Assembly: GCA_934045075.1 (NCBI GenBank)
Contig: CAKOGX010000003.1
Span: 31,001 to 95,000, forward strand
DNA from: Yponomeuta sedellus
Taxonomy: Eukaryota; Arthropoda; Insecta; Lepidoptera; Yponomeutidae
Direction of reading: 5' to 3'
DNA: 64,000 nt
This document shows, piece by piece, positions 470-62,582 of this stretch (position 1 is the stretch's first letter; every line of letters starts with the position of its first letter). Both the position numbers and the translations under genes were made by a program. The notes beneath the pieces are model-generated. The model did no database searches. It worked only from the letters and a program-made list of their open reading frames with translations, and was not told where the DNA came from.

Positions 470-2110
470 GTAATACTATCAATAAACAAAATACTTCATG
501 AATGAAAGACATTGGATTTGAAGGCAGCCGCGAAATTCTAAGCTTCAAAAAGATTGGTTTCCTATTTAGGAAAATAAAAAGTAACAGAAAGGTTTAAACT
601 AGAAGAAATTATATAAGTGCGTGGCGTGCTCATTATCTACAGGCCGTAAAGCAAAATGAAGAGAAATTTTACCCGTAGTCTCAATACAGATATACTAAAA
701 ACACTTGCTGTTTAGATATTGTAGAGAATCAAGCGTTACTTTACGGAAATCCATAATAGCATTAAAATGTGAAAATTACTTTGCTAAATTCCACCAAAAT
801 CCCACAAGCACCATGCGGTTAATAAATAAAATAAAATAAAGCTTATTTGCCAGTAAAAAAAAGATTTTAAGATTAAAATAGGTGCAAATTAGTTTATACA
901 TTTTAATTTTATTAAAAAAAAACTATATTACCGTGTGAGAATTCCAATAGATAACATTTTAACAGTTATTATTAGTTAATTAAATTATTATGATGCATAT
1001 CGTTAAATAGAGTTCTTAGTTTAAATTAATAGAATCAGGAGTCTGTATTCATGAAACTACTTTTAAATAACTACGCTGCAGTACTGTCGTAAGTTTTGTC
1101 TTTCAAATAATTGCGAAATATTATTTTGGCATTTCAAATCCCACACAATTTCGAATCCCACACTCCTTAGAGGTAGAATTGTATAGATGTGGAATAAGGA
1201 ATCTGGCAAATTGCTTACTAAAGACCATCATTAGGGAGGGTATGAGCAATAGGTGGTCGCACCGTTTTGGTCTGGTTTTGGGGTCTGATGATCTTACCAT
1301 AATCCTATGGCCAGCCCTTATTATTTTATAAATGAATTGTCTTCGAACGCTTAGCACCTGAGCATCGAAAAACAGACTGGTAGTAGGGTACCCAAAAGAC
1401 TTCCTATATTACTGTATTATGTTAATATATTACTTTGTCTGTACTACTTACAGAGCTGCAAAGTAGGTAGGCGGGGCTGCAAGTGTCTTCAGCCAGATGT
1501 CGCTGCCTGTAAGTAATAGGTACAGAGAGTATTGTAAAGAGGTTTGAAATTTCACTGATGCAATAGCACGGGTTGGTGCAATAAAATGAATATAATCAGG
1601 ATAATTATGTTTTGGTATCTTTGTTTTCTGATGACTTTACTATAATTTATGATCAACATGAACATCGTCTAGAGGTTGTATGGTATCAAAATCTTCACTA
1701 TCTTCATCGTTGGTATCATTATTATCATCACTATTTTCATCGCTGTCTGACCAGGATTTTATGATGATAAGACCCTTGACAAGGGAACAACAATTGCGCC
1801 ATTCATGGACAGGTAGGACTTTTTAACCTTCTAAGGCCCAATGTCCTCAAGTGATCACAAAACTACTGTCATTTTCAAGGTCGGGCCTTACGAGATTAAA
1901 TGCCTTTTCCGCCATTTTCGGAATTTCGTTTTAGTTCCGAATTTGACCAAGTGCCAAATGATCCTTTTAGCACTGTAATGTACAGAAATCGAGGGCGGAG
2001 GACACAGAACAATTAGGTATTTTTATTTTTTATAAACTGATGGCAAATATGCTCTGTGGCAACAAAATAAATATGGCAGCGGGCGACTGAGTGATTTTCG
2101 CGATTTTCGT
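470..2110. other. AT-rich region upstream of the ZAD gene
   Basis: No supported gene. Contains a piece (about 755-800) related to the hairpin MITE family seen at 47.4 kb and a partial SINE-A at about 1452-1592. The promoter of the zinc-finger gene is presumably between 1900 and 2170; no TATA box is convincing. Confidence 0.5.
1452..1592 (+). repeat. SINE-A, partial
   Basis: Matches the 5' part (GCAAAGTAGGTA, CAGATGTCGCTGCCTGTA, AATTTCACTGATGC) and the tail (TAGCACGGGTTRGTGCA), but lacks the tRNA-like middle. Confidence 0.75.
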
Positions 2111-31545: not shown

Positions 31546-31939
31546 AAAGAAGTTATGATTTTTATTCCATTGGCGGCGCTAGTGTGCACGCCAAAGCGCT
31601 TTAAAATAAAACACATCTATCGGCTTCATAACACTACGAGATCGATCGATAATGTTACAGTAGATTTATCTAGAGAGAAGTTAGAAGACATTTTACAATC
31701 TATCTTCTTTGGACAGTTTCAGATTTCTTTTATTAATCATCAAGCACAATATCCTACTTAAATGTTAGTAATAGCCGTGTTTTAACACTAGATTAGTAAA
31801 GTTTGCCTTACAGACATGATTTATTAGTAATTTCCAGAGTTGTTTAACTCTTTCTCAGTATTTAAATAATACAAAACGTTAACAGAAAACACAAAAGTCA
31901 AAAGTTAAAATTAAAGCATCTCTTGTGATTAATTAAATT

Positions 31940-33498
31940 CGTGAATAAGTGTCCTCACAATTTCAAACTGCAGAGTCGGGTACATATGGAAAGACCCGAG
32001 CCAGCCTGTCTACGGCGATGGTGATCTCCCAGCAAGCCAAAAATCCTAGAAAGTACTCTTTTGTAAGCAACCTTAGGTTGGTGATTCAGTCCTCGAGCAT
32101 ACACAAGTTGTAAGCAAACTTCGGTCGGTGAATAAGTCCTTACAATTTTAAACTGCAGAGTCCGCTATACGCGAGAATACACAAGTTGTAAGCAAACTTC
32201 AGTTGCTGAATCAGTCCTTACATTCAAACAGCAGTCCTTCAAACAGCAGAGTCGGGTATATGCGGAACTACACAAGTTGCAAGCAGACTTTGAATAAGTC
32301 CTCAAATCTTCAAACTGCAGAGTCGGGTATGTATGGGAACACCTGAGCCAGCCTGCCCACGGCGATGGTGATCTCCCAGCAAGCCAAAAATCCTAGATAG
32401 TACTCTTTTGTAAGCACAGTGAATCAGTCCTCACATCTTCAAACTGCAGAGTCCAGTATATGACGGAAGACTTGAGTAATCCTTTCCAAGAATCGTAGAA
32501 TCTTCATCTTGTGAGTTTTTTGTAGTAGTGTAGGACGCCCTCCGACTAGGTAGGATGAAGATCAGCGAAAAACTGCCGGCAGACGCTGGATGCGGCAAGC
32601 TGAAGCAAGAAGACAGGGCGCTATGGCAAACTTAGGTTGGTGAATAAGTGTCCTCACAATTTCAAACTGCAGAATCGGGTACATATGGAAAGACCCGAGC
32701 CAGCCTGCCCACGGCGACGCTGGTCTCCTAGCAAGCCAAAAATCCTAGAAAGTACTTTTTTGTAAACAACCTTAGGTTGGTGAAACAGTCCTCGAGCATA
32801 CACAAGTTGTAAGCAAACTTCGGTCGGTGAATAAGTCCTCACAATTTTAAACTGCAGAGTCCGGTACATGCGGGAATACACAAGTTGTAAGTAAACTTCG
32901 GTTGCTGAATCAGTCCTCGAGCATACACAAGTTGCAAGCAAACTTCGATTGGTGAATAAGTCCTCGAGAATACACAAGTTTGTAAGCAAATTTCGGTTGC
33001 TGAATTAGTCCTCGGGAATACACAAGTTGTAAGCAGATTTCGGTCGGTGAATCAGTCCTCACATCTTCAAACTGCAGAGTCCGGTATGTATGGGAACACC
33101 TGTGCCAGTCTGCCCACAGCGGTGGTGATCTCCCAGCAAGCCAAAAATCCTAGAACGTACACTTTTGTAAGCAACTTTTGTAAGGTTGGTGAATCAGTCC
33201 TCACATCTTCAAACTGCAGAGTCTGGTATGTATGGGAACACCTGTGCCAGCCTGCCCACGGCGGTGGTATTTCTTCGGTTGCTGAATCAGTTCTTACATC
33301 TTCAAACTGCAGAGTCGGATATATGCGAGAAGATTTATGCCAGCTTCCCCACGGCGGCCAAAAATCCTAGAAAGTGCTCTTTTGTAGGCAATCTTAAGTT
33401 GGGAACAAGTCCTCAAATCTTCAAACTGCAGAGTCCGGTATATGCGGGAATACACAAGTTGCAAGCAAACTTCGGTTGGTGAATCAGTCCTCACACCT
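31940..33498 (-). repeat. array of GTPBP2-like last-exon 3' ends
   Basis: About eleven degenerate copies of the end of the terminal exon. Each has, on the - strand, the coding end, the stop (CTCTGCAGTTTGAA-type) and the bases after it (GTGAGGACTGATTCACCAAC). Some units also hold CCGTGGGCAGGCTGGC and TTCCCATACATACC. Units are 90-200 bp and irregular. A family C piece (32565-32635) interrupts. See the finding on this array. Confidence 0.8.
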
Positions 33499-33681
33499 TC
33501 AAAGTGCGGAGTCGGGTATGTATGGGAAGACCTGCGCCAGCCGGCCCACGGCGGTGGTGTCTTGTCCAGCTCGCAGCAGCAGCCGGCGCCGCGGCCGCAC
33601 GTACTCGGCGCAGCGCGAGAAGCGGAACACCACGGACGCGCGAGCGCCCACTGACAGCACGCCGCACGGCGAGAGGATGCC
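33499..33681 (-). CDS. GTPBP2: GTPBP2-like exon o: last exon, stop
   Basis: 60 codons and TGA at 33499-33501. [20 protein letters not shown] then [20 protein letters not shown], ending IPDSAL. Matches the family's LRTGEKAVVRFRFLKHPEYL. Acceptor CTCCCGCCAG. Both its start and its end are amplified in the flanking DNA. Confidence 0.88.
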   Translation of the reverse strand, partial: GILSPCGVLSVGARASVVFRFSRCAEYVRPRRRLLLRAGQDTTAVGRLAQVFPYIPDSAL

Positions 33682-36600
33682 CTGGCGGGAGAGTGGACTA
33701 TCATTCAAAAAACTATGAAGCTGGTGTAAGGCTTCAACACCACGGAGGCAAAGAGGATGCCCTGGCGGGAGAGTGGACTATCATTCAAAAAAGTTTGAAG
33801 CTCAAATAAGAAAACCAGTTGGAGATTAAGCTTCAACACCACGGAGGCAAAGAGGATGCCCTGGCGGGAGAATGGACTATAACAAACTTTTAAAGTGTAT
33901 CACGCGCGTATGTCACAGTGCGAATGTGTGTGCAGATGGATCGATAAAATAGCGAGCGAGCGGCACGAGCGACGGCACCGGAACGACTCAGAATAATGAG
34001 TGAATGACCACAGATTCTTGATTACGTCGCGCGATCGATTCTCGCGCGAACGACTATCATTCAAAAAACTATGAAGCTGGTGTAAGAAAACCAGTAAGAG
34101 ATTATAAGAAATTAAGCTTCAACACCACGGAGGCAAAGAAGATGCCCTGGCGGGAGAATGGACCATCATTCAAAAAAATTTGAAGCACAAATAAGAAAAC
34201 CAGTTGGAGATGAAGCTTCAACACCACGGAGGCAAAGAAGATGCCCTGGCGGGAGAGTGGACTATCATTCAAAACAGTATGAAGCTCAAATAAGAAAACC
34301 AGTTGGAGATTATAAGAAATTAAGCTTCAACACCACGGAGGCACGAGCGCCCACAGACAGCACGCCGCACGGCGAGCGACAGCGTTATGCCAGTTCGAAC
34401 GGTTAACTTACTCATACTCACTGCTCGATTAACACGGTAGTAAAGTTCGGTAGTAAACTCGCACTAAGCACTCAGAGTGCTTAGTGCGAGTTTGACAGAT
34501 CCAATCGAATAACTTTACTACCGCGTTAATCGAGCATTGAGTAGTGAGTATGAGTAAGTTAACCGTTCGAACTGGCAAAACGCTGTCACAGTGCAACTCG
34601 CACTCGCGTTTATTCGTGTTTTGGCTGGTAAACGTGTTCACATCTCAACGTAAACCATAACAACTCGCACTCGGCAATTTTAGTTTCCATACTTGTCGCT
34701 AGGTGGCGCTTCCTCGATGCCATAGAAATATGAGTTTACGTGAACGCGATCGAGTAGTTAAAAAACTCTCACTAAGCACTCTGGTCGACCGAACAGTCCG
34801 TGCAACACCACGATTTCTTTTAGACTCTCGATTGACAGCTTGTCACTGGTGTTTTTCTTCATGCACTCGCGTTTTAAATAGGATCGGACTTTGGGGGTGG
34901 GAGGGCAAAATATTGACGGATCAACTCCGCGCTAAATTCAAAAATAAGTTTTTAAAACGTAAAAAGTGTGAGAAGAAACAGAATTGTTACCTCAATGATA
35001 GCCGTTTGCCTGACGTTGCCGATGTGGACGGTACACTGGAAGCCGGGACTGATGTATGCCGTTGAGTGCCTCAGGAGATGCACCGTCGCCTGGAATAGGT
35101 GAAAATTTGTCCATCACCGCTGTTAGGAAAAGTTGCTCAGGCTTGCACTGAACAGAGATTCTTTATTAACATTTTACATACAGGCACATACATTGCTTCT
35201 GGCCCCACACTAGGATACCCTGTGTCGTGGGAACCAGAAACAACGACATCACAAACATGTAAACATCCTAGACCTGTACTTTTCTTTTTTTGTTTCCAGC
35301 CGGGATTCGAACCCGAGACCTCTTGCATGGTAGGCAGACGCGCTACCGCTACGCCACAGAGGTCGTCCTATTGCACTAAAACTTGTTTTAATTAAATACC
35401 TACTTATATCAGTAAGGAGAGCTTTTATGGATCCACCTGTAGAAGCAGATCGAGCCATAATTATCTTCGGCTGCGACCGTTTGTGGAGTAAGGTGTCTGC
35501 GATACTTTGCGCTGAGTGGTCGCATTTGGTTGTATGTGGCTTGATGTGTTTTGGCGCTCGTCCATATTCTAACATGCTGTCATCACACGTTAAAGGATAT
35601 GTAACTAGATTATAAGCTTTCGTCATGATATTTTTACATGTTATGTTACTTATGTATTGTGTAATGCTATAAATAAAATAAAACAAATTTGTACAAAGGC
35701 GAGCTTAATACCAGATAGTATTTTCTTCCAGCTAAGCCACGATAATGCGGGCAGTGGAAGGGGTAGTGCCAGTAAGCAATATAATATAAGAGTGATTTAT
35801 TACATAGTTATCAACCCTTGTATGTCCCCACTGCTGGGGCACGGGTCTCTTTCTGCATCGCAGGAAGGTTAGGCCATACTCCACCACGGGGGCCAAGTCC
35901 GTGTTGGTGGAGGATTGTAAGACAGTGGCGGGCCTTACTGACAGAAGTTATCAAGCCGCCCATAAGGCCTCTGACATGGCTTAACGACTGCCATTATATG
36001 ACAGCCGGCACCAAGGGCTTAACGTGCCTTGCGAAGCACGGAAGCGCTCGGAAAAATGCCACTAGCGGTAGTCACGGTACGCTCACCCATCCCGTTCCTG
36101 ACCGCGCCTTTTGTTGCTTAACCAAGTGATTGATTCCAATCACTCGGTTCGCCTAGGCCACGAGCGCTTCTTGATTTATTACATAACCTAGGTTAACTAA
36201 ATATTACAAATATAATTTAAATACACATACGTATATAAAATAGCACAAAATATATAAAATGAATGTTGGTACATATCATATATTTAAAATATATTTAACT
36301 AGCTTTTGCCCGCGACTCCGTCCGCGTGGAACTTCGATTAAAAATTTTGCAACACCGTTCACTCGCGTAAGGATTAAATTTAAAAAACAAACGGCGAAAC
36401 ACACGTTCAATCAATTGTGTTGAAGAGTATTTATTTTAAGTTTCAAGAAAATTAGACAACGTTCTTTTGAATATATTGAAGTTTTTGAACTAAAACTTTC
36501 GTAAGCACGACACATTGTAGACTTTTAGTCCGGATCTACTTACACCCGTACTTACAACACCCGTAAGTAGGTCCGGACTAAAAGTCTACAATATATTGAA

Positions 36601-39600
36601 GTTATTTTAAATGAAATGCAGCGGTTTCCACTAATCAAGCTGTTTTAATTTGATATTAGAACTGTGCAGTTACAAGTTCCGGGCAGAGAAAAAGAAAAAT
36701 CATCATTATCTAATGTTGGCAGTACTTCTTCTTCTGCCGTTAGGTTACTAGTACTTAGATATTCTTGTCTACAGTGCGTTCACATTAACTTGACGCGTGA
36801 GAGAATTGGTAACAAGGACATAACATGTGAATTAGCTTTTGGTCCTAATCGGAAGATGGTAAAACAAGCCCTCAATCTATTTATTTTCCCCAAGTAATGG
36901 GAATGATTTCTTATTTAACATGGTAACAGTAAACATCTCAGTGCTACCAATTCTCTCACGCGTCAAGTTAATGTGAACGCACTGTATACAAGAATATCTA
37001 AGTACTAGTAACCTAACGGCAGAAGCATTCTCATTATTCAACATATATTAAATATCTGTGCCAAAAGGTAGCGCTTTTGGCACTAAGTCTATAACATTAT
37101 TAATTATTTAGATGACAATGATGTCTGGAATTAAAGCCAGTACAATGTATGAGTTTTGTAAAAATTATGTAAACTATACTATTTTTATTTTTAATGCACT
37201 AACCCGTGCTAAGGAACAAATTTAAAAACCTATTTAGAGGCTAAAAACTCTGGCACGGATAGCCAGAGGTTGCGGGTTCGAATCCCGGCATGGGTGAAAT
37301 TTTTAGCCTCTAAATAGGTTTTTAAATTATGTAAACTGTTAATTAAGGACCTTGAAAAGACTAAGTTTGGAGTTTTTTTGTCCATTTTTTCTCCAAAATG
37401 ATCTAGATTTTGAAATGGACACCAAGTTGACTTCTAAGGTTCATTAAGCCACAGTTTCTGCGCTACTTTGAAAAAAAACCATTTCATATAATGGCAGTCG
37501 TTAAGCCATGTCACAGGCCTCATGGGCGGCTTGATAACTCTGACAGTAAGGCCCGCCACTGTCTTACAATCCTCCACCAACCACTGCAAGTGATGCAAAT
37601 TACTTCAGCCAGATGTCGCTGCCTGTACGTAATACAGAGAATATTGTAAAGAGGTTCGAAATTTCACTGATGCTGGTGAGTCGCCCATTAGCTCAGTTGG
37701 AAAGAGCGCTGGCACGGATAGCCAGAGGTCGCGGCTCGAATCCCGGCATGGATGGAATTTTCAGCCTCTAAATAGGTTTTTTAAAATCCTCCATCAACCT
37801 GGACTTGGCCCCCGTGGTGGAGTACGGCCCAGCCTTCCTGCGATGCAGGAAGAGACCCGTACCCCAGCAGTGGGGACATACAAGGGTTCATATCGAAGGC
37901 CATGAAACATACATACATAACCTCACGCCTGTACCCCAGAGGGGTAGGCAGAGACCAGGGACTGCCACTTGCCACGATCCTGACAGATCACCTTCGCATC
38001 ATCAGCGTTCATAAGTCGTTGCATGCACGCACGCCGGTTCCGGGTACTTTTTATCTTTCCCTTTGCTAATACATCCCCTATTTGGTCGATGTATGTCCGC
38101 CTGGAACGTCCCTTACCAGCCCTTCCACTCACATTCGCAATATAATTCTAATTTCCTTCCGCAACTTTCCATCGTAAGGTTGTCTGGAAGAAATAGCTTT
38201 TAGCAATAAGGCCGCCGCAATTGTACTAAGTATATTTGCAATTGTTTTGTATTTGCTGTTTTTCCAGTGTACATTAAAGAATATTCTTTTATCTCATGTT
38301 ATCTTATAATTATATTTTCGTCATGAAACCTACCTGGAGATAGAGACAGCCAGTGTACTATTCTTATCTTATCCTAACCTAATCTTGTCTTGTCCTCTCC
38401 TGTCCTCATCTTATCTTATAATTATGGGCGGTGGTAGCGGAGCAGTGTGGAACGCCGGCCTCTCAATCGGGAGGTCGTGGGTTCAAACCCCGGCATGTAC
38501 CAATGACTTTGTTTTCTAAGTTATGTACATTTGTGAAATTATAGTAGCAATACTACTCGCCGACGGTGAAGGAAAACAACGTAAGGAAACCCTAGTGTCT
38601 GAGGTGTTAGAGTACCTCAGCGCTTGCTACGTACAATGGCCCAACTATGAGGCTAAGTGCGGAAATCTCAGGGCTAACTATCTTTCTTATGATTATAATT
38701 TTTTCGTCATGAAACCTACCTGGAAATAGGGACAGCCAGTGTACTATTCTTATCTTATCCTATCCTAGCATAACCTATCTTATCTTGTCTTGTCTTGTCC
38801 TGTCCTGTCCTGTCCTGTCCTGTCCTGTCCTGTCTTGTCCTGTCCTGTCCTGTCCTGTCCTGTCCTGATCTTATAATTATAATTTTTTCGTCATGAAACC
38901 TACCTGGAAATAGAGACAGCCCCTCGGGTCGTTCGGATCGTCCAGGTATACTAATCCACCGCAGCCGCAGTGGGCCGGCCGCTCTGACTTCCCCGGCTCC
39001 TCCGGCTTGAAGATGTTGCTTTGAGACCCAACCGGAGTCTTCTTCAGGCTGTCTTCGACCAACTGCGGATGGTAGTAAGCATAACATGACAACCCGTTAA
39101 CCTATTTAGCCTCCAAATAGGTTTTTAAAATTGTCCTCAGCACGGGTTACGGCCTGCGCAGACGAAGGAATGTTCTCCCCAAGGGACAAAAGTTCCTGAA
39201 ACGTTAAAAAATTTCCTCAGAGTACTTGTCGCGGTGGTGCCGTAGGTGCCGGCTGTCATATAATGGCAGTCGTTAAGCCATGTCAGAGGCCTTATGGGCG
39301 GCTTGACAACTTCTGGCAGTAAGGCGCGCCACTGTCTTACAACCCTCCACCAACCCGGACTTGGCCCCCGTGGTGGAGTATGGCCTAACCTTCCTGCGAT
39401 GCAGGAAGAGACCCGTGCCCCAGCAGTGGGGACATACGAGGGTTGATAACGAACGAACGATCTTGTCGCGGACTCAACGCCTACGGTGTGCGCTCATTTG
39501 TTCCCCGGGAATTGAGTGATGGAAGTACGCTATGGAAGCAAATATTATGAGATTACACTGTGTTGTAATTTACATGAGGTTGAAAAATAAAAGGCGTTTT

Positions 39601-54600: not shown

Positions 54601-57600
54601 GCCAGTACCTGTGCGTCGAAGCCGAGTATCTCGCGCCAGTACCTGTGCGTCGAAGCCGAGTATCTCGCGCTAGTACCTGTGCGTCGAAGCCGAGTATCTC
54701 GCGCTAGTACCTGTGCGTCGAAGCCGAGTATCTCGCGCCAGTACCTGTGCGTCGAAGCCGAGTATCTCGCGCCAGTACCTGCGCGTCAAAGCCGAGTATC
54801 TCGCGCCAGTACCTGTGCGTCAAAGCCGAGTATCTCGCGCCAGTACCTGTGCGTCAAAGCCGAGTATCTCGCGCCAGTACCTGTGCGTCAAAGCCGAGTA
54901 TCCCGCGCCAGTACCTGTGCGTGCAAGCCGAGTATCTCGCGCCAGTACCTGTGCGTGCAAGCCGAGTATCTCGCGCCAGTACCTGTTCGTCAAAGCCGAG
55001 CATCTCGCGCCAGTACCTGTGCGTCAAAGCCGAGTATCTCGCGCCAGTACCTGTGCGTCAAAGCCGAGTATCTCGCGCCAGTACCTGTGCGTCAAAGCCG
55101 AGTATCTCGCGCCAGTACCTGTGCGTGCAAGCCGAGTATCTCGCGCCAGTACCTGTGCGTCAAACCCGAGTATCTCACGCCAGTACCTGTGCGTCAAAGC
55201 CGAGTATCTCGCGCCAGTACCTGTGCGTCGAAGCCGAGTATCTCGCGCCAGTACCTGTGCGTCGAAGCCGAGTATCTCGCGCCAGTACCTGTGCGTCAAA
55301 GCCGAGTATCTCGCGCCAGTACCTGCGCGTCAAAGCCGAGTATCTCGCGCCAGTACCTGTGCTTCAAACCCGAGTATCTCGCGCCAGTACCTGTGCGTCA
55401 AAGCCGAGTATCTCGCGCCAGTACCTGTGCGTCAAAGCCGAGTATCTCGCGCCAGTACCTGTGCGTCAAAGCCGAGTATCCCGCGCCAGTACCTGTGCGT
55501 GCAAGCCGAGTATCTCGCGCCAGTACCTGTGCGTGCAAGCCGAGTATCTCGCGCCAGTACCTGTGCGTCAAAGCCGAGTATCTCGCGCCAGTACCTGTGC
55601 GTCAAAGCCGAGTATCTCGCGCCAGTACCTGTGCGTCAAAGCCGAGTATCTCGCGCCAGTACCTGTGCGTCAAAGCCGAGTATCTCGCGCCAGTACCTGT
55701 GCGTCAAAGCCGAGTATCTCGCGCCAGTACCTGTGCGTCAAAGCCGAGTATCTCGCGCCAGTACCTGTGCGTCAAAGCCGAGTATCTCGCGCCAGTACCT
55801 GTGCGTCGAAGCCGAGTATCTCGTGGCTGAGCGAGGAGGTTCGTCCGCTGCGGACCTCGTGAACGTGTCTGAACATGTTGAGTCGTGCCGAGCCGCGCCC
55901 GTTGTCCAGCTCGCCTGGTGAACCACATACATCACATAAGACATCTGTGCAACTTCCACATGTAAACATACAAAGTACAAGTTGTTACCCTATTGCATCT
56001 TCTTCGTCAGGCTATATTAGTCCACTGCTGGACATAGCCCTCCCCTAATGAGCGCCATAGCGCAAGGTTGTGCCATCATTGGGGGGTAATGGCCATAATC
56101 CCCACGCTGGGCATGCGGGTTGGGGATCGCAGTTCGGTGTAATTGTACTGCAGGGGGCGCTGCTGCCCACCCCCCGGTTTGTGTCCCTTAGTCGTCTTTT
56201 ACGACACCCGCGGGAAGAATTTGGGTATTGCATAAATAATAATATTTATTTCCAGAACAAGTCCAATACATTTCAAACACAAACGCACACACACACACAA
56301 TAAAGGAACTTAAAGTAAATTCCATTAAATCATTAATTTACTTATTGATACTTTTATTGCCATTTCAAGCGCTAGGGTAATTGAACACCTCAGATACCCA
56401 GGTTTTCTTTCTCACATGCTATAGTACATTTAATTTAATTTGTCAACTGGTGAACTTCTAGCATTATTAATGTAAGAAATTAATGTAAGATATTTTCTGA
56501 TTCACCGAAAATATCTTACGTTTATACGTTGTCTAACCGTTGGGCGTGCCTCCCCTCACTCACCCTGAGTCAGCACGCCGATGAGCGTCCTCCCCTCACT
56601 CACCCTGAGTCAGCACGCCGATGAGCGTGGACTTGCCAGCCTCGTTAGCTCCGGTCACAGCAACCCGCAGCTCTACGCTCTGCTGCGTCTCTGCCAGCTG
56701 GTGGAGGCAAGGATAATAATAATAACAATAATAATAGACATTTCGGAAGAAAAAAAAACAGTGTTCCATAGTTATGTTAGTCCTCGTCAGGCTATACTAG
56801 TCCACTGCTGGACATAGCCCTCCCCTAATGAGCGCCATAGCGCCCTGTCTTCAGCTTGCCGCATCCAGCATCTGCCGGCAGTTTTTCGCAGATCGTCATC
56901 CCACCCAGTTGGAGGGCGTCCCACACTACGTTAGAAACTTAAAAAAAATAATCTAAACTAAAGGTAAAACTATGTTAGTAGGCTTAATATCAACGTTCTT
57001 GTAAACTCATTCACTCAGATAGAATAGCGTAAGATAAAATAAGATAAAAATATGACGGCCTCGCTAGCGCAGCGGTTTGGCACGCTGTCTGTACAACTCA
57101 AAGATTCAAAAGTCCTTTAAAAAGCGCGCAGTTGCGCCCTTTTATTTGACGGTGGAGGACACGTACCTTTCTAATGTACACCTCAGCTACGGCCCTATGC
57201 GGGGTCACGACATGCGCGCTTTCGCACCATGCGTCTCAAAGTCCTCAAAGAGGCGCACAGTGCTTAAATGCATTTTTGTTGGAGAAAAACACAGTATTTT
57301 TCAATCCAGAGAATCAAAAGTTTTTCAAAAAGCGCGCAGTTGCGCATTTTTAACAAAGAACTACACATAATATTAATTAATAAGCACAGTATTTCCTAAT
57401 TCAGAGTCTCAAAAGCCCTTCCAAAAGCGCAATTGCGCTCTTTTACTATACGGTGATTGACATACCTTTCTAATGTAGACCTCAGCGACGGCCTGATGCG
57501 GCGCCACGCGTCTGACCGTGACGTGCGTCAAATGCACGCCCAAAGAACGCGCCATTCGACGCAAAGCGCATTTTTTTCAGAGATAAGCACAGTATTTCTT

Positions 57601-60600
57601 TAATTTGGAGACGCAAAGTCCTTCAAAAAGTGCACAGTTGCGCACTTTTACCAGATTTTTCTAATTTAGATATTTAATTTAGAGACGCAAAGTCCTTCCA
57701 AAAGCGCGCAATTGCGCACCTTTACCACAAAAAACACTTTATTTCAACGCAGACCGATACAATACCTTCCTGATGTAGGCCTCGGCAACGGCCCGGTGCG
57801 GCGCCACGCGCCTGGCCGTGACGTGTGTCAAATGCGCGTCCAGAGATCGCCATTCGATGCAAAGAGCATTTTTTTTCGGAAATAAACACAGTTTTTTTTT
57901 AAATTAGGACACGCAAAGTCCTTCCTCAAGTCTTAAGAGATCACTTTTAATTATAAGGCCGGGGTTTGTACTCTAAGGTTAAGAAATATATGTGTAATTT
58001 CCATTTTTATGTACAATAAAGTGTTCTCTATCTCTATTTATCGTTCAAAAAGTGCGTAATTGTGCACTTTTACCATTTAATTTAGAGATGCAATGTCCAT
58101 CAAAAAGCGCGCAATTGCGCCCTTTTATTTGACGGTGTAGGCCACATACCTTCCTGATGTAGACCTCTGCGACGGCCCGGTGCGGCGCGACGCGCCTGGC
58201 CGTGACGTGCGCCAGATGCGCGCCCAGCGCGCGCGCCATGCGCCTCAAAGTCCGCAGCGAGGCGCGCAGTGCGCGCGCGCGCAGGCCTCGCAGCGCGCCG
58301 CAGTCGCGCACCCGCCCACCAGGTAGATGGCCGCGCCGCCGCCCGAGCGGAGCCGCCATTTCAGCTGCGCGGACAACGTTCCGAATTGAGTAGCTGTGCG
58401 GAATGTGCTTCTATTTCGACCGTGCAGATGAAATTCTGTTACATCTGTGCGGATGAGGTTCTATTATGTCTGTGCGGACAACGGTTTGGAATAGAATAGC
58501 TGTGCGGAATATGTTTCTATTTCGCCCGTGCAGATGAAATTCTGTTATATCTGTGCGAATGAGGTTCTATTATGTCTGTGCGGACAACGGTTTGGAATAG
58601 AATAGCTGTGCGGAATATGTTTCTATTTCGCCCGTGCAGATGAAATTCTGTTATATCTGTGCGAATGAGGTTCTATTATGTCTGTGCGGACAACGGTTTG
58701 GAATAGAATAGCTGTGCGGAATATGTTTCTATTTCGCCCGTGCAGATGAAATTCTGTAATATCTGTGCGAATGAGGTTCTATTATGTCTGTGCGGACAAC
58801 GGTTTGGAATAGAATAGCTGTGCGGAATATGTTTCTATTTCGCCCGTGCAGATGAAATTCTGTTATATCTGTGCGGATGAGGTTATATTAAGTCTGTGCG
58901 GACAACGGTTTGGAATAGAATAGCTGTGCGGAATATGTTTTTATTTCGACCGTGCAGATGAAATTCTGGTTATATCTGTGCGGATGAGGTTCTTTTATAT
59001 CTGTGCGGACAATTTGTTGTTTTAGATGTGCAGACAATGTTTTGTTTTAGCTGCGCGGATAACGGTTCGGAATGGAGTAGTTGTGCGAAATAAAAATAAA
59101 ATACTATTTATTATAAAATTTCACAATTTATAAAAGGGTAAAGACCCCGTACTAGGTAAAAACCTGTATTACGGAAAGTCCTTCTTTTTCGATTACCATT
59201 GTGGAAAAAAAACAATTTCTTAAAATAGTGTTTAGTACACCATTAAAAAAAAAGGAAACATTTATTTAAATTGCCATAAATGTACACACATAAAAAATAA
59301 CACAGTAATGGGAAAGATGAACATCATTATACTATTTTTATTTTTAATGCACTTAACCGTGCTAAGGACAAATTTAAAAACCTATTTAGAGGCCAGAAGC
59401 AATGTATGTGCCTGCATGTAAATGTTATAATTCCGAACCGTTGTCCGCGCAGCTGAAACAAAACATTGTTCGCACAGATATAATAGAATCTCATCCGCAC
59501 AGATATAACAGAATTTCATCTGCACGGTCGAAATAGATACACATTTTAGTTTTTTAATTTTATAGTTATTTCTTAGTTCTTTTGAAAAGTAATATCGAAC
59601 TGTTTATTGTATTTTTACTTCCTAATTGATGTTCATCTTTAAAAACCTATTTAGAGGCTAAAAATTTCACCCATGCCGGGATTCGAACCCGCAACCTCTG
59701 GCTATCCGTGCCGGCGCTCTACCAATTGAGCCAATGGCACGGATAGCCAGAGGTTGCGGGTTCGAATCCCGGCATGGGTGAAAATTTTTAGCCTCTAAAT
59801 AGGTTTTTAGTATACAGTTTCATATTACTATCTTTTCAACAAAATTTCAAAAAGAACTAAGAAATAACTATAAAATTAATAAACTAAATTGTGTATCTAT
59901 TTCGACCGTGCAGATGAAATTCCATTATGTCTGTACGGATGAGATTATATTATATTTGTGCGGACAATGTATTGTTTTAACTGCGCGAACAACAGTTCGG
60001 AATGGATTTATCCGGACACGGATATTGATAGCGACGGTATTGCAGCAGTTAGACGACGGCTGGCTGCGAATTTTTTTTTTAGAAGTGAGTGAGTACGCTC
60101 TCTTCGCATTATTTATGTATAAATTTTAGCTATATATTTTTCCTTCTGAAATGCTTACACCTTAATTTATTTTTCACTGAAACTCGTTTTTTTGCGGTGA
60201 CTTAATCTCAGTTAATCATTAGTTTTAACAATTTATGGCTACAAGTGGAAGCCTGTTAATGGACTTTCTGTTTCATATTTTTAAATAGCATTAAGTGATA
60301 TAATGCCAATGGCTTTCCTAAAACTAAATAAATAAAAATAATAATAAATAGAATATTATTTATTGCTGTGTGGAATACTTTTTATTTCGACCGTGCAGAT
60401 AAAATTCTATTATATCTGTGCGGACAATGTTTTGTTTTAGATGTGCGGACAGTGGTTTGGAATAGAATAGTTGTGCGGAATATGTTTGTATTTCAACCGT
60501 GCAAATGAAATTCTATTACACCTGTGCGGATGAGATTCTATTATAGATATGCGGACAATGTTTTGTTTTAGCTGAGCGGGCAATGTTTTATTTCAGCTGC

Positions 60601-62582
60601 ACGGACAATGATTCGGAATGGAGTAGCTGTGCGGAATGTGTTTCTTTTTCGACCGTGCATATGTGCGGATGACATTTTATTTTATCTGTGCCGATGATAT
60701 TATGTTTTGTTTTAGCTGTGCGGAATATGTTTCTATTTCAACCATGCAGATAAGATTCTATTATATTGATCTGTGTGGACGACATTTTATTTTAACTGTG
60801 CTGATGATTTTTGTTTCGTTTTAGGTGTGCGGTCAATGTTTTGTGTTGGAGCCCTACGTCACTGAGCGGTGCCCCGCGCCCCGCAGGCCAGAACCGGCCG
60901 GACAACTTGCGAGCAGGTCGGCGGGCCGAGCCGCGGCATGCGGCACTTCACACCATCCGACGTGTCGATACACACTAATTTTGAATTATCTTCTTTTTCC
61001 AATTAAACCATCAATTTATACAGTCCACTAGCTTATTTATCTCGATATCAAGACCCTGAGCTAACATTTGTTTTAGCTGTTCGGAATATGTTTCTATTTC
61101 AACCGTGCAGATGAAATTCTATTATATCTGTGCGGTCAATGTTTTGTTATAGCTGAGCTGGCAATGTTTTATTTCAGCTGCACGGACAATGGTTTGGAAT
61201 AGAATAGCTGTGCGGAATTTAATTCTATTTTAAGACGCCATTTCAGCTGTGCGGACAATGTTATGATTCATTTTAGCTGTGCGGAATATGTTTCTATTTC
61301 AAACGTGCAGATGAGATTCTATTATATGAATCTGTGCAGATGACATTCTGCTGTGATCCTGTTTTTGCTGTGCGGATAATTTTTTATATATTAGCTATGC
61401 AGACCATGTTTTATATTAGCTGCGCGGGCAGTGTTTTGTTTTAGCTGTGCGGATTATGTTTTGTTTCAGTTGAACGGAATTTCTGAATTAATTTGAAAAG
61501 ACGTCTGGTCAACTCCTCACCTGCGTGACCAGATGCTGGAACCTTCTCTCGCAGGGAGAGACGAGTTGAAGCTTGTACTCCACTCCGCCGTAACGGGGCT
61601 CCGGCGGCAGAGAGCCGTAGGTTTCATCGCTCGTGTCTTCTAGCTCCGAGGCGCTGCTGAAGAGAGGTGGCTCTTTGTGAAACGAATCATTCATTTATTC
61701 AAACGTCGTCGTCGTCGCCAGGCTATACTAGTCCACTGCTGGACACAGCCCTCCCCTAAAGAGCGCCACGTTGTGCTATCATTGGGTGGTAATGCCCGTA
61801 ATCCCCACGCTGGGCATGCGGGTTGGGGATCGCAGTTCGGTGGAATTGTACTGCAGGGGGCGCTGCTGCCCACCCCCCGGTTTGTGTCCCTTAGTCGCCT
61901 TTTACGACACCCGCGGGAAGAATTGGGTTGGTGCTATTCTCTAGGCCGACACTACACAGCAATATGGTGTGGTGTGTGGCTTTATTCATACATTCATTCA
62001 TATTCATTCTTTGACATAAAAAAGCACGTCTCCACATTTAACTCACATCCCCAGATATAACTCAGGTCCCCACATATAACTCAGGTCACCACATGTAAAT
62101 CACGTCCACACATATAACTCCGGTCCCCGCATTTAACCCAGGTCCCCAAATATACCATCTAAGTCATGTCCCCACATTTAACTCAAGTCCCGACATAATA
62201 TAACTTACGTTCCCATACATATCTCACGTGCCCACATATAACTGACGTCCCCACATATAACTCAAGTCCCCACATAATATATCTTACGTTCCCACACATG
62301 ACTCACGTCCCCACATATAACTCACGTCCCCACATATAACTCAAGTCCCTACATAATATAACTTACGTTCCCACACATAACTCACGTCCCCACATATAAC
62401 TCAAGTCCCCACATATAACTCACGACTACACGTTTCACTCACCTGTCCCCGTAGGAGTCGGTATCCTCGTCGTCATCCGAGTACATGACGTCATCCCCCA
62501 AGTCCGCCGGGTTGAAGTCCCCGCAGGTGTAAGCGTCATCTTTAAGGCTCACCTTCTCCAGTTTGTCTATGACGTTGTGGAC
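33499..62582 (-). CDS. GTPBP2: GTPBP2-like GTPase gene, 15 exons (span; 5' exon(s) missing)
   Basis: Exons in coding order: 62582-62443, 61656-61521, 58364-58150, 56697-56604, 55914-55799, 51648-51484, 49609-49451, 47020-46902, 45722-45575, 44928-44814, 43865-43764, 42873-42668, 39062-38904, 35089-34991, 33681-33499. All borders are GT-AG and all phases match, apart from one missing base in the third exon. Order of similarity follows animal GTPBP2/GTPBP1: EYKLQLVSP and [16 protein letters not shown]1 [41 protein letters not shown]3 [24 protein letters not shown], then the EF-Tu-like beta domains to [11 protein letters not shown]. These are translational-type GTPases linked to ribosome-rescue and RNA surveillance. 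The identity, and paralogue 2 rather than 1, are inferred from remembered vertebrate sequences. It runs convergent to the zinc-finger gene. Confidence 0.85.
33682..34375 (-). repeat. array of GTPBP2-like last-exon starts
   Basis: Four to five units, each having on the - strand the acceptor and first codons (CTCCCGCCAGGGCATC) joined, with internal exon sequence deleted, to GCCTCCGTGGTGTTGAAGCT. One copy (34330-34375) retains the [13 protein letters not shown] codons. The intervening 33890-34055 is unrelated. Confidence 0.82.
34379..34586. mobile_element. palindromic MITE
   Basis: The left arm ACAGCGTTATGCCAGTTCGA is mirrored by TCGAACTGGCAAAACGCTGT at the right end. The arms extend about 65 bp, with a central hairpin GCACTAAGCACTCAGAGTGC. 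Confidence 0.82.
34991..35089 (-). CDS. GTPBP2: GTPBP2-like exon n
   Basis: 33 codons: [20 protein letters not shown] then [13 protein letters not shown], matching the family's GFQVTVHVGNVRQTAVVE. Acceptor ACCTATTCCAG, donor GTAACA. Too short to appear as a long open frame. Confidence 0.88.
35165..35365 (-). repeat. SINE-D, reverse
   Basis: CATTGCTTCTGGCCCCACAC to the complement of the tRNA-like head, GCGCTACCGCTACGCCACAG. Confidence 0.8.
35400..35800. other. intron stretch without recognised feature
   Basis: Between exons m and n of the GTPase gene. Nothing coding was recognised. A polypyrimidine-poor AT stretch at 35630-35690 precedes a family B copy. Confidence 0.4.
35805..36175 (+). repeat. 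family B repeat, fullest copy
   Basis: From AGTTATCAACCCTTGTATGT through GGCCTCTGACATGGCTTAAC and ATGACAGCCGGCACCAAGGG to CGCCTAGGCCACGAGCGCTT, about 370 bp. No tRNA-like head and no target duplication was recognised. Probably the 3' end of a LINE or an unusual SINE. Confidence 0.8.
36515..36591. repeat. perfect hairpin
   Basis: TTGTAGACTTTTAGTCCGGA at the left and its complement TCCGGACTAAAAGTCTACAA at the right, with about 20 bp between the stems. Confidence 0.8.
36731..37025. mobile_element. palindromic MITE
   Basis: CTTCTGCCGTTAGGTTACTA at the left is complemented by TAGTAACCTAACGGCAGAAG at the right. The arms run at least 90 bp and include GTGCGTTCACATTAACTTGA. No coding capacity. Confidence 0.85.
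37177..37326. repeat. SINE-A pieces
   Basis: A reversed tail (to about 37248) joined to a forward 3' part from GGCACGGATAGCCAGAGG. Confidence 0.75.
37490..37890 (-). repeat. family B, reverse, split by SINE-A
   Basis: Family B pieces at 37490-37582 and 37786-37890 flank a forward SINE-A at 37583-37784; both pieces read TCCTCCA(T/C)CAACC at the junction, so it is likely a target duplication. Confidence 0.8.
37920..38132 (-). mobile_element. LINE reverse-transcriptase C-terminal fragment
   Basis: Open on the - strand: [20 protein letters not shown], then [36 protein letters not shown]. The same type of tail is coded at 53.96-54.27 kb. A C-terminal fragment only. Confidence 0.65.
38145..38310 (+). 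mobile_element. LINE 3' end (family K)
   Basis: CTTCCGCAACTTTCCATCG to TACATTAAAGAATATTC, as at 14.5 and 41.5 kb. Confidence 0.65.
38315..38903 (-). repeat. copies of the exon m 5' splice site, a SINE head and a (GGACA)n array
   Basis: The exon m end and donor (TATTTCCAGGTAGGTTTCAT on the - strand) recur at about 38318-38355 and 38706-38745 besides the real one at 38890-38915. Between them lie a tRNA-like SINE head (38424-38500, + strand, GGTTCAAACCCCGGCATG) with its body to about 38690, and a pentanucleotide array TGTCC (38785-38872). Confidence 0.8.
38904..39062 (-). CDS. GTPBP2: GTPBP2-like exon m: Cys-containing insertion
   Basis: 53 codons, phase 0, acceptor CCATCCGCAG, donor [26 protein letters not shown] then [19 protein letters not shown], ending LYFQ. 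The final residues run into exon n as [10 protein letters not shown], which replaces the family's FEAEIVLLFH. The spaced Cys residues could bind a metal. Confidence 0.75.
39238..39450 (-). repeat. family B repeat, reverse
   Basis: TGTCATATAATGGCAGTCGT to AGTGGGGACATACGAGGGTT. Confidence 0.82.
39803..40086 (+). repeat. SINE-A, nearly full length
   Basis: ATCATGTGGGTACAGCGATA to TAGCACGGGTTAGTGCA, with the 3' part shortened after GAATTTTTAG. Confidence 0.85.
40095..40295 (-). repeat. SINE-D, reverse
   Basis: Same extent as the copy at 35165-35365, next to a SINE-A. Confidence 0.8.
40312..40544. mobile_element. MITE-H, uninterrupted copy
   Basis: The terminal repeats AGTCTGTTAGCCTTTAGAAT and TTTTCTAAAAGCTAACAGACT are complementary with few mismatches. 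About 233 bp. Confidence 0.83.
40675..41879. mobile_element. mariner-superfamily element with long TIRs, non-autonomous
   Basis: TA CAGGGCG...CGCCCTG TA. The inverted repeats run about 170 bp (40675-40845 against 41710-41879). A further inner pair carries CATGAAACTGTCGTAGTTAA and its complement. There is no transposase; instead a LINE 3' piece (41200-41680) is inserted in the middle. It is related to the 4.4-kb element by its CAGGGCGTCCCA end. Confidence 0.85.
41200..41680 (+). mobile_element. LINE fragment: RT C terminus and 3' end (family K)
   Basis: At 41217-41309 the frame [20 protein letters not shown] then [10 protein letters not shown] and TAG is the usual C terminus of Jockey/CR1-type ORF2. 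It is followed by the 3' UTR with AATAAGGCCGCCAATTGTAC and a TTATCTTATC tail. It sits inside the mariner-type element. Confidence 0.7.
41903..42155 (+). repeat. SINE-E, full length
   Basis: The head is CGGCCTCGGTGGCGCAGCGG to GGTTCAATCCCCGGCCGGG (tRNA-like A and B boxes). The body contains TCTTGGATGTTATCTATGTA and ends GTCCATGAATATTTATTTAT. Confidence 0.82.
42345..42667 (-). repeat. purine-rich array after exon l donor
   Basis: Degenerate CCTTCCTTTTACCTTCATTC-type units of about 65-70 bp directly following the exon l donor. On the coding strand the units contain AAGGTA. It gives open frames on both strands that are not genes. Confidence 0.7.
42668..42873 (-). CDS. GTPBP2: GTPBP2-like exon l
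   Basis: Acceptor CCGCCCGCAG, donor [22 protein letters not shown] aligns with the family's RKGMVMVSP. The rest, from [15 protein letters not shown] through [18 protein letters not shown], has no counterpart I recognise and begins the insertion. A GA-rich purine tract (on the coding strand) follows the donor. Confidence 0.82.
42902..43060 (+). repeat. family B repeat, partial
   Basis: AACCCATTATGTCCCCACCG to CGGGCCTTACTGGTAGAAAT. Shows the uninterrupted site that the 27-kb Harbinger element disrupts. Confidence 0.78.
43120..43763 (-). repeat. 42-bp array of exon k 5' splice sites
   Basis: About sixteen units. On the - strand each contains CAGTCCGCCAGTCTGG|GTGAGT followed by TGAGCTACCAACCAAGCTAG-like filler. 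The first 16 bases are the end of exon k and GTGAGT is its donor. The central block (43195-43440) is almost perfect. Confidence 0.9.
43764..43865 (-). CDS. GTPBP2: GTPBP2-like exon k
   Basis: [20 protein letters not shown] then [14 protein letters not shown], the RAGQ-containing strand of domain II. Acceptor TGCCCTCAG, donor GTGAGT. Its last 16 nt and donor seed the 42-bp array at 43120-43763. Confidence 0.9.
43900..44475. repeat. hairpin MITE-J copies, a family B piece and an (ATGA)n array
   Basis: Pieces of the family described at 47393-47612 lie at 43905-44060 and 44330-44475. The second is a hairpin: TTATGCTCGTTTATTACA with its complement. A family B piece is at 44083-44120 and (GAAT)n at 44286-44322. 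Confidence 0.7.
44484..44692. repeat. microsatellites (ACTC)n, (GTAT)n, (TTTA)n
   Basis: Three tetranucleotide tracts: 44484-44503, 44504-44592 and 44662-44692. Confidence 0.92.
44814..44928 (-). CDS. GTPBP2: GTPBP2-like exon j: start of beta domain II
   Basis: [20 protein letters not shown] then [18 protein letters not shown]. Matches the family's EFQVDEIYTVPEVGTVVGG stretch. Acceptor CCCGGCAG, donor GTGAGC, exit phase 1. Confidence 0.9.
44974..45232 (-). repeat. SINE-A, reverse, nearly full
   Basis: AAACCTATTGAGAGGCTAAA to GGAACGATACCACATGAT. A forward tail piece (45262-45303) follows. Confidence 0.83.
45575..45722 (-). CDS. GTPBP2: GTPBP2-like exon i: G5 region
   Basis: Acceptor CCCCGCAG, donor [26 protein letters not shown] corresponds to the SSVSG-type G5 segment; then [20 protein letters not shown] and a Pro/Ala-rich end. 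Extremely GC-rich. A CACGCA-rich array lies immediately upstream (45790-46316). Confidence 0.85.
45790..46316. repeat. CGCACGCATTCA-type tandem array
   Basis: Degenerate units of about 8-24 bp built from CACGCACGCATTCA and CACACGCACGGACGCATT. It lies immediately 5' of exon i. Both overlapping + strand frames are open (Thr/His/Arg/Ala-rich), but they only reflect the repeat. Confidence 0.85.
46595..46692 (-). repeat. family C fragment
   Basis: TTCTTCTTCAGGCTATATTA to AGCTTGCCGCATCCAGCA. Confidence 0.72.
46902..47020 (-). CDS. GTPBP2: GTPBP2-like exon h
   Basis: 39 codons plus 2 nt after [51 protein letters not shown] surface-loop region between G4 and the end of the G domain, poorly conserved in the family. 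Assigned by phase and position. Donor GTGAGT. Confidence 0.72.
47393..47612. mobile_element. hairpin MITE-J, intact
   Basis: Near-perfect foldback: AATTTTCCGACGTTTCGGCA, CTTTTTCAGGTGCCG, a 15-bp loop, then the complement. The outer arms run from CATAATTAAAACAGTTTTTT. Related sequence at 44330, 43905 and 2800. Confidence 0.82.
47640..49100. other. intron stretch without recognised feature
   Basis: Between exons g and h. AT-rich. Four loose repeats of TTTTGTTCTGGTA(T/A)AGAC near 47638-47730. An imperfect inverted region 48030-48900 (GGTTTAAACCAAGACTAA against TCTATGGTTTAAACCTGG) may be an old element. Confidence 0.4.
49229..49450 (-). repeat. two extra copies of the exon g 3' end with donor (111-bp unit)
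   Basis: Copies end at 49340 and 49229, each with [20 protein letters not shown] and the GTCAGT donor. The spacer reads [13 protein letters not shown] in frame. The unit is 37 codons, so the frame stays open across all copies. Confidence 0.88.
49451..49609 (-). CDS. GTPBP2: GTPBP2-like exon g: G4 region
   Basis: 53 codons, acceptor [44 protein letters not shown], then [17 protein letters not shown]. Donor GTCAGT at 49445-49450. The last 111 bp with donor are repeated twice more in frame; use of the donors at 49334 or 49223 would add 37 or 74 residues. The G4 position reads SKCE instead of the family's SKID. Confidence 0.88.
49634..49735 (+). repeat. SINE-A, 3' half
   Basis: CCAGCTCAGTTGGAAAGAGC to CCTCTAAATAGGTTTTTAAA. 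Lies 25 bp upstream of exon g's acceptor. Confidence 0.78.
49742..50281. mobile_element. Helitron-like copies, one interrupted by family C
   Basis: A reverse copy from CTAGCTGACCCAGCGAACTT (49742) is interrupted by a family C piece (49827-49885) and continues to about 49980. Forward partial and full copies follow, to GGTCAGCTAGTA at about 50281. Confidence 0.7.
50522..50772 (-). repeat. family C repeat, full
   Basis: TATTAGTCCACTGCTGGACA to TCTCTAAGCCGACACCACAC. Confidence 0.8.
51000..51483 (-). repeat. degenerate copies of the exon f 3' end with donor
   Basis: About four to five diverged units of 90-145 bp. GGTGGACT-type donor-side anchors are at about 51029, 51174, 51265 and 51361, with the real one at 51474. 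On the - strand each resembles the CTCACGGGCTACTCGCCACA to GTGAGTCCACCGTC region, with many substitutions and stops. Confidence 0.8.
51484..51648 (-). CDS. GTPBP2: GTPBP2-like exon f: G3 motif
   Basis: 55 codons, phase 0. [20 protein letters not shown], then [18 protein letters not shown] with the G3 motif DLAG, then [14 protein letters not shown]. Donor GTGAGT. Degenerate copies of its 3' end follow to about 51000. Confidence 0.9.
51685..51975 (-). repeat. family B repeat, reverse
   Basis: TAGTTAAGCAACACCAGGCG to GATGCAGGAAGAGGCCCGTG. Confidence 0.82.
52000..52625. repeat. AT-rich loose repeat with SINE-A insertion
   Basis: Many degenerate units of the type AAATTTACAACTGATAAATT and TTTGCTGAATAATTTAAATT, of about 35-45 bp. 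A reverse SINE-A (52206-52360) interrupts the array. Confidence 0.7.
52972..53441 (+). mobile_element. solo LTR, intact, 470 bp
   Basis: TGTTACGGGCTAGGGTTCTG to GGGATAGGACCGCGACA, flanked on both sides by ATAC. Same family as 21262-21744. Confidence 0.83.
53790..53945 (+). mobile_element. LINE 3' end (family K)
   Basis: CATCCCAAGGTTGTCTGTAA, GATAAGACCGCCAATTGTAT and a TCTAATCTAATCTA tail. Confidence 0.65.
53961..54275 (+). mobile_element. LINE reverse-transcriptase C-terminal fragment
   Basis: The open frame [20 protein letters not shown], then [20 protein letters not shown] and [14 protein letters not shown] is the post-RT region of a non-LTR element. After 54190 the frame jumps to the 3' end (CTGATCGTTGCAAGTGG-like, CCTCTGGGATACAGGCGTGA) through an internal deletion. 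Confidence 0.7.
54340..55798 (-). repeat. 34-bp array of exon e 5' splice sites
   Basis: About 43 units. On the - strand each reads GATACTCGGCTTTGACGCAC then AG|GTACTGGCGC, that is the last codons of exon e (ILGFDAQ) plus its donor. Since 34 is not a multiple of three, all frames are open on the + strand and give spurious open frames of up to 402 codons. The left end (54340-54600) has shorter or altered units. Confidence 0.93.
55799..55914 (-). CDS. GTPBP2: GTPBP2-like exon e: switch I region
   Basis: [20 protein letters not shown] then [19 protein letters not shown], the region holding the switch I Thr. The acceptor is TTCACCAG. The apparent donor is CAG|GTACTG, repeated about 43 times in the 34-bp array that follows; which one is used is unknown. 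Confidence 0.88.
55985..56228 (-). repeat. family C repeat
   Basis: TCTTCGTCAGGCTATATTAG to CGACACCCGCGGGAAGAATT. Lies 70 bp upstream of exon e's acceptor. Confidence 0.8.
56549..56628 (-). repeat. 40-bp duplication of the exon d end and donor
   Basis: Two exact units, 56549-56588 and 56589-56628. Each has on the - strand ACGCTCATCGGCGTGCTGAC followed by TCAGGGTGAGTGAGG. The second belongs to exon d. Confidence 0.92.
56604..56697 (-). CDS. GTPBP2: GTPBP2-like exon d: P-loop
   Basis: 31 codons plus 1 nt. [20 protein letters not shown] then [11 protein letters not shown]. This holds the G1/P-loop GxxxxGKST that binds the GTP phosphates. Donor GTGAGT. The last 40 bp including the donor are tandemly duplicated. 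Confidence 0.9.
56783..56912 (-). repeat. family C fragment
   Basis: CTCGTCAGGCTATACTAGTC to GCATCTGCCGGCAGTTTTTC. Confidence 0.75.
57090..58130 (-). repeat. decayed tandem copies of the exon c 3' half and donor
   Basis: Three more copies of the VAEVYIRK and donor region, at 57761-57865, 57461-57569 and 57160-57262 (- strand, e.g. GCCGTTGCCGAGGCCTACAT in the first). Around them are about eight copies of GCAAAGTCCTTCAAAAAGCG-type units, which match the CTCAAAGTCCGCAGCGAGGC part of exon c. A family K LINE end (57921-58030) is inserted. Confidence 0.82.
58150..58364 (-). CDS. GTPBP2: GTPBP2-like exon c (one base short)
   Basis: Acceptor GTCCGCGCAG, donor GTATGT. The first part reads [18 protein letters not shown]; the second, in a different frame, reads [19 protein letters not shown] and [14 protein letters not shown]. 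The exon is 215 nt, whereas 216 would keep both neighbours in phase. A missing G in the GGGCGGG run at about 58311-58320 would explain it. Very GC-rich. Its tail is repeated downstream and its acceptor upstream. Confidence 0.8.
58365..61450 (-). repeat. array of exon c 3' splice sites
   Basis: Near 58500-58930 the unit is 106 bp and nearly perfect (four copies), itself made of about 26-30-bp monomers of the type CTGTGCGGACAATGTTTTGT. On the - strand each monomer ends TTGTCCGCACAG, like the exon c acceptor TTGTCCGCGCAG. Interruptions are at 59090-59430, 59540-59895 (with an inverted SINE-A pair at 59638-59809) and 60010-60350. Confidence 0.85.
60850..60970. other. GC-rich island in the splice-site array
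   Basis: About 110 bp of GC-rich sequence (GCCCCGCGCCCCGCAGGCC, GGCGGGCCGAGCCGCGGCAT) unlike its AT-rich surroundings. It might be a decayed copy of exon c's beginning (- strand GTGAAGTGCCG against CTGAAATGGCG), but the match is weak. Confidence 0.35.
61521..61656 (-). CDS. GTPBP2: GTPBP2-like exon b
   Basis: Acceptor CTCTCTTCAG was chosen because it alone gives the right phase. Encodes [20 protein letters not shown] and then [19 protein letters not shown], ending LVTQ. Donor GTGAGG. Confidence 0.85.
61712..61965 (-). repeat. family C repeat, full
   Basis: GCCAGGCTATACTAGTCCAC to TCTCTAGGCCGACACTACAC. Lies about 55 bp upstream of exon b. Confidence 0.8.
62038..62442 (-). repeat. 19-bp array of the exon a 5' splice site
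   Basis: About twenty units. On the - strand most read GTGGGGACGTGAGTTATAT or GTGGGGACTTGAGTTATAT. Exon a ends GGGGACAG|GTGAGT, so the unit repeats the exon end and donor with two bases lost. Confidence 0.88.
62443..62582 (-). CDS. GTPBP2: GTPBP2-like exon a
   Basis: 46 codons plus 2 nt from a CTCCCTCAG acceptor. Encodes [16 protein letters not shown] and an acidic stretch ([13 protein letters not shown]). Donor GTGAGT. No ATG lies at its beginning, so an upstream exon must exist. MITE-I copy 2 ends 23 bp upstream of the acceptor. Confidence 0.8.

Follow-up and report, generated by a model that had tools for sequence, protein, structure and literature searches.

Tandem repeats lying over exon-intron borders have been described in amphioxus under the name of mirages. 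The reports cover Adh3, the globins BflGb6 and BflGb9, troponin C and PGBD5, where minisatellite-like copies extend over the border on its 5' or 3' side, with units of 10-72 bp in Adh3 and 150-160 bp in the globins (PMC3087553, PMC3902484). In the same accounts the AG/GT signals are intact in many units, normal splicing is reported as undisturbed, and the arrays are described as unstable (PMC3087553, PMC3902484). Two related situations are the internal tandem repeats at exon-intron boundaries of human segmental duplications, with units averaging 30 bp and with alteration of gene structure (PMC2812944), and the gain of introns by tandem genomic duplication, in which a stretch carrying a splice signal is duplicated (PMC4974935, PMC3443670). 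In the open-licence literature, no report of exon-border minisatellites was found for Lepidoptera.

By sequence criteria, the arrays described here in the moth Yponomeuta sedellus are exon-border minisatellites of the mirage kind, so that the view of the initial annotation, that nothing comparable had been described, did not hold. They are like those of amphioxus in their tandem units over exon-intron borders, their varied lengths and the conservation of AG/GT, and they differ in belonging to Lepidoptera, in affecting nine borders of one gene with up to 43 copies, and in including the end with the stop codon, which has no splice site; the moth case is known from the sequence of one assembly. 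The human repeats are tied to recent paralogues and transcript change, whereas the moth copies seem to be intronic and silent. In the tandem-duplication model of intron gain, new introns are made inside exons, whereas the moth gene multiplies existing borders, and its protein aligns to orthologues across its exons, which is relevant to any intron gain inside a former exon. In the literature found, such minisatellites were a curiosity of lancelets, and they now appear in a moth by several coding frames. Their origin thereby becomes testable in Lepidoptera, a group with many sequenced genomes, with a bearing on the tolerance of splice sites to copies, on intron growth and on the possible birth of new introns.

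Gene identity and exon map

The window is the whole stretch of 64,000 nucleotides analyzed (C32:31001-95000), and the coordinates below are window positions. The genome comprises 657.5 Mb in 57 contigs, and because several of the others measure 10 to 27 Mb, contig C32, with 157,175 bp, is presumably an unplaced scaffold. Judging from its predicted product, the minus-strand gene is the lepidopteran GTP-binding protein 2 (GTPBP2), of the GTPBP1/2 family. The product matched PF00009 (GTP_EFTU) with an E value of 1.3e-11, a PDB search led to GTP-binding protein 1, and the best among the matches listed in a protein search were lepidopteran GTPBP2 proteins of Cydia, Brenthis, Bicyclus and Vanessa (65-70%).

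The exon map was drawn by hand and then compared with lepidopteran GTPBP2 proteins. Fifteen exons (a to o) were placed in the window and at least two more 5' exons outside it, matched at L008:4789-4923 and L005:7181-7312, which gives the gene a span of about 75 kb of C32. The window exons, all taken from the exon map, are as follows.

62443..62582, minus strand: exon a, also by protein alignment; border copies unsupported (exon-directed BLAST, TRF unit alignment)
61521..61656, minus strand: exon b; without border copies by exon-directed BLAST and local-copy scan
58150..58364, minus strand: exon c; donor end copied (exon-directed BLAST)
56604..56697, minus strand: exon d
55799..55914, minus strand: exon e
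51484..51648, minus strand: exon f
49451..49609, minus strand: exon g
46902..47020, minus strand: exon h; without border copies by exon-directed BLAST and local-copy scan
45575..45722, minus strand: exon i; without tandem border copies by exon-directed BLAST and local-copy scan
44814..44928, minus strand: exon j; without border copies by exon-directed BLAST and local-copy scan
43764..43865, minus strand: exon k
42668..42873, minus strand: exon l; without border copies by exon-directed BLAST and local-copy scan
38904..39062, minus strand: exon m
34991..35089, minus strand: exon n; without border copies by exon-directed BLAST and local-copy scan
33499..33681, minus strand: exon o, terminal, with the stop codon; also by protein alignment

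The 14 exons other than c are open and their phases fit, and five orthologues share 66-71% identity with the joined protein. Such a conserved frame would be consistent with undisturbed splicing. The alignment of the exons with orthologous proteins indicates that their borders are probably those of real coding exons. In exon c the homologous reading frame shifts near 58311-58314, whether through an error in a base, a true frameshift or unusual splicing. Next to the window, on its upstream side, is a run of 5,000 N (C32:95001-100000; L004 1-5000), either a gap or a withheld stretch.

Copied borders of GTPBP2

A border copied into the flanking DNA was found in eight of the 15 window exons by exon-directed BLAST, TRF and a local-copy scan, in agreement with the initial annotation, which had counted at least eight. 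The nine borders are the donors of exons c, d, e, f, g, k and m, and the acceptor and the stop end of exon o, and the extra copies lie towards the intron or beyond the stop. From the borders that had been listed before, the donors d, e, f, g, k and m, the 3' half of exon c and both ends of exon o were recovered, but donor a and acceptor c were not. The copies, followed by the two arrays whose border origin was not retained, are listed below.

57095..57864, minus strand: three degenerate copies of the exon c 3' half with its donor (exon-directed BLAST, 70-78% identity)
56537..56629, minus strand: donor d array, 40 bp x 2.3, with 25 exonic and 15 intronic nt (TRF)
54346..55823, minus strand: donor e array, 34 bp x 43.6, with 25 exonic and 9 intronic nt (TRF)
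50997..51434, minus strand: four old copies of the exon f donor region (exon-directed BLAST, 63-79% identity)
49222..49520, minus strand: donor g array, 111 bp x 2.7, with 70 exonic and 41 intronic nt (TRF and exon-directed BLAST; 99% identical)
43122..43779, minus strand: donor k array, 42 bp x 16.7, with 16 exonic and 26 intronic nt (TRF)
38301..38737, minus strand: two further copies of the exon m donor, at 38685-38737 and 38301-38351 (exon-directed BLAST, 93-96%)
33834..34376, minus strand: copies of the acceptor of exon o and of the first part of that exon (TRF and exon-directed BLAST)
31938..33357, minus strand: ten matches, some overlapping, to the coding end of exon o with its stop and downstream sequence (TRF and exon-directed BLAST)
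58365..59059, minus strand: 25/106-bp array abutting the exon c acceptor, with weak border content (TRF and exon-directed BLAST)
62025..62424, minus strand: 19-bp x 20 array in intron a, border origin unsupported (TRF)

The TRF units for the donors of d, e, g and k and for the acceptor of o cross the borders and were found without reference to the exons, the copies of c, f and m come from exon-directed BLAST, and those of exon d, which exon-directed BLAST missed, come from TRF and the local-copy scan. Exon-directed BLAST gave three matches to the exon o acceptor (33834-34312), and the exon m copies do not adjoin head to tail but are separated. In array e, AG/GT is present in 36 of 43 slices, the other seven being out of register, and in array k it was seen by eye to be intact in most units. 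Donor a was rejected as an array source, as the 19-bp array begins 18 bp into the intron and its unit gave no cross-border alignment; acceptor c was likewise set aside, with only about 6-14 exonic bases in its weak matches.

No border copies were detected at exons a, b, h, i, j, l and n by exon-directed BLAST, TRF and the local-copy scan, and b, h, i, j and n had already been noted as free of them. Identities of the border copies by exon-directed BLAST range from 63% (f) to 99% (g), which indicates copies of different ages, and the units run from 22 to 111 bp, with four of the nine measured being multiples of three and five not. These differences in units and ages uphold the earlier proposal of independent events. 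A further array of 61 bp and about 16 copies was noticed in a GTPBP2 5' intron, from L007 9885 to L008 875, distant from the exons found.

Frequency of border arrays in the gene and elsewhere

For the seeding test, TRF families were taken blind to the exons, and 31 of 63 rows were kept after a period and complexity filter. Eight of 19 TRF units aligned over a border, against 0.27 expected with random seeding along the gene (P 4e-11). When the 25-bp families were pooled and two weak exon c matches dropped, the count was 6 of 15 against 0.24 expected (P 4e-8), a result that depends on our pooling and on the filter that kept 31 of the 63 rows, and that is in line with the claim that cross-border units are more frequent than if units were sown at random over the gene. 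With the analysis restricted to the exon-dense part, the count was 6 of 11, with 0.40 expected (P 4e-7; P 3e-6 when the largest periods are used). An earlier test of random placement did not reach significance (3 of 18 clusters, P 0.18; within 25 bp, 4 of 18, P 0.085), and it was replaced by the unit test because its complexity filter had lost long units, such as the 111-bp array.

At base level and a score of at least 20, no excess was detected, with a local copy at 9 of 30 borders versus 31% of points drawn at random from the introns of that gene, the rates at comparison points being 16% in the window left half and 5.5% on chromosomal sequence. We read this result as circular, because arrays grown from borders fill the introns, and consequently the claim is carried by the seeding argument alone. 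Good copies were found at 7 of 14 donors versus 1 of 15 acceptors (Fisher P 0.014; plain 7:1 binomial P 0.07). In the gene stretch, tandem repeats of period 15 or more occupy 19.1% of the sequence; the share is 0.70% in the part of the window before position 31940 and 3.75% in 16 hand-picked 10-kb controls from large contigs. The low share before 31940 bears on the remark in the initial annotation that the neighbouring zinc-finger gene has nothing comparable beyond one exon fragment.

The idea that a single gene is targeted had to be given up, since like arrays adjoin other coding frames on large contigs and the GTPBP2 protein models of two other moths also repeat exon ends. The longest array among the 16 large-contig controls (L020, on C23) has 43 bp x 39, and its unit contains an open-frame end with a GTGAGT donor (about 1700-1850, reverse strand); the frame looks coiled-coil-like by eye and gave no Pfam match. 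A search of the genome for three perfect AGGTRAGT donors spaced 18-48 bp apart produced 170 matches, and the motif read backwards 89. Among the 100 of these 170 matches listed, which reach C19, there were 16 clusters, 15 of them without an 8-bp microsatellite, amounting to at least 15 non-microsatellite donor arrays on nine large contigs among the matches listed. The backwards-motif control, in full, gave 13 clusters, with five on C1-C19, of which four lacked an 8-bp microsatellite. On C1-C19 the comparison of non-microsatellite clusters is 15 for the donor motif versus 4 for the backwards motif (binomial P 0.019), and this donor-motif proxy for a genome-wide scan mildly favours a border excess. 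Tandem GTAAGT with a 14-bp period gave 402 matches versus 319 in the control and was not informative.

In four of the four flanks examined, from the 15 arrays listed, the unit appears to consist of an open-frame end plus its putative donor; in L030, 63 bp follow the exon's own donor before the first array-like copy. One flanking frame is a TRIM9/TRIM67-like SPRY exon (PDB 7qs5, E 6e-15) and another is GBF1-like (PF23325, E 5.8e-5, below the Pfam cut-off, with no useful PDB match), while the remaining two, one Ig-like by eye and one Ala/Pro-rich, had no family match. A 65-bp x 10.6 array at L008 8227-8913, adjoining an open-frame end that was read as a retrotransposon tail, is perhaps another edge-derived array.

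Other moths were compared through predicted proteins. Among the 120 proteins listed, of 967 GTPBP2-family proteins found, repeated 9-mers were detected in two, those of Ostrinia nubilalis and Cydia amplana. The O. nubilalis model contains five matches to exon g, with repeats that stop where exon h starts, and another five to a portion of exon l, where the border was not placeable; in the C. amplana model the end of exon m is present in eight copies. Neither the O. furnacalis model, an isoform whose C-terminus differs, nor that of C. splendana contained these repeats. A 7-mer screen of the first 55 proteins gave a third case, Iphiclides P0018, with two short repeated words.

Origin of the arrays

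We consider it somewhat probable that mirages arose in this lepidopteran genome through recurrent short tandem duplication, with unequal exchange enlarging the arrays and with retention wherever the copies stay silent. Replication slippage or microhomology-type repair would repeatedly produce short local tandem duplications, some of which would cross an exon edge, and the arrays would then grow and erode by unequal exchange or conversion, as their copy numbers and ages suggest. They would persist where the cell has finished with the exon. Behind a donor, the first donor would be used and the extra copies removed with the intron, and behind the stop codon the copies would be untranslated. Survival of silent copies would give a donor bias, copies at the stop end and unit lengths without frame selection, and acceptor arrays would be fewer because extra acceptor copies are more easily read; the copies carried by the exon o acceptor count against it. 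A short stretch shared at the breakpoint was seen, by eye, in array d only, and about 34 intronic bases of the array g unit are not found after its last copy, which is contrary to simple slippage. This model does not account for the higher number of border seeds than of intron seeds, nor for the many arrays of GTPBP2.

More tentatively, lepidopteran genomes may have an active border-seeking tandem duplication that copies donor edges in many genes, with GTPBP2 as a recurrent hotspot whose exons g and m were hit separately in different moths. If such a process were true, a second animal lineage, far from amphioxus, would share one mutational habit.

It seems rather doubtful that GC-rich or structure-prone exon edges seed the minisatellites, with splice borders as bystanders. 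Exon GC (0.56-0.82) is indeed higher than intron GC (0.31-0.56), but its mean is 0.65 in exons with arrays and 0.66 in those without, so that the GC-rich edges invoked in the initial annotation do not stand as the sole cause. Exons i (0.82) and j (0.73) are free of arrays, though exon c (0.76) is not, and acceptor edges with an equal GC step are seldom involved.

It is unlikely that the arrays mark a duplicated or decaying gene copy, whether haplotig, sex-linked or pseudogene, from which repeats are not purged. The small size of the presumably unplaced C32, the frame change within exon c and the N run just upstream would fit such a copy, but the open exons with their fitting phases, the identity of the protein to its five orthologues and the like arrays on chromosome-scale contigs argue against it.

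Retention of the extra donors by selection, as decoys or spares, is very improbable. The intact AG/GT of the 36 in-phase units of array e and of most array k units would agree with it, but the donor positions of array e (0.858) are not conserved beyond the exonic (0.853) and intronic (0.876) ones (43 slices, the last seven out of register), five of the nine units are not multiples of three, and the copies of f and c have decayed. That the arrays are an assembly artefact is hardly credible, for although the copy numbers come from one assembly, the copies differ mutually and cover a range of ages, the same gene is repeated in protein models of two other moths, and in lancelets the authors report confirmation of the PGBD5 repeats by new sequence data (PMC3087553, PMC3902484).

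Outside the gene, window positions 16491-17838 contain a pair of similar stretches, lying 865 bp apart, that seem to be repeat-rich DNA copied in tandem, and the 16,390-bp contig C57 (L027) is AT-rich and of about mitochondrial size.
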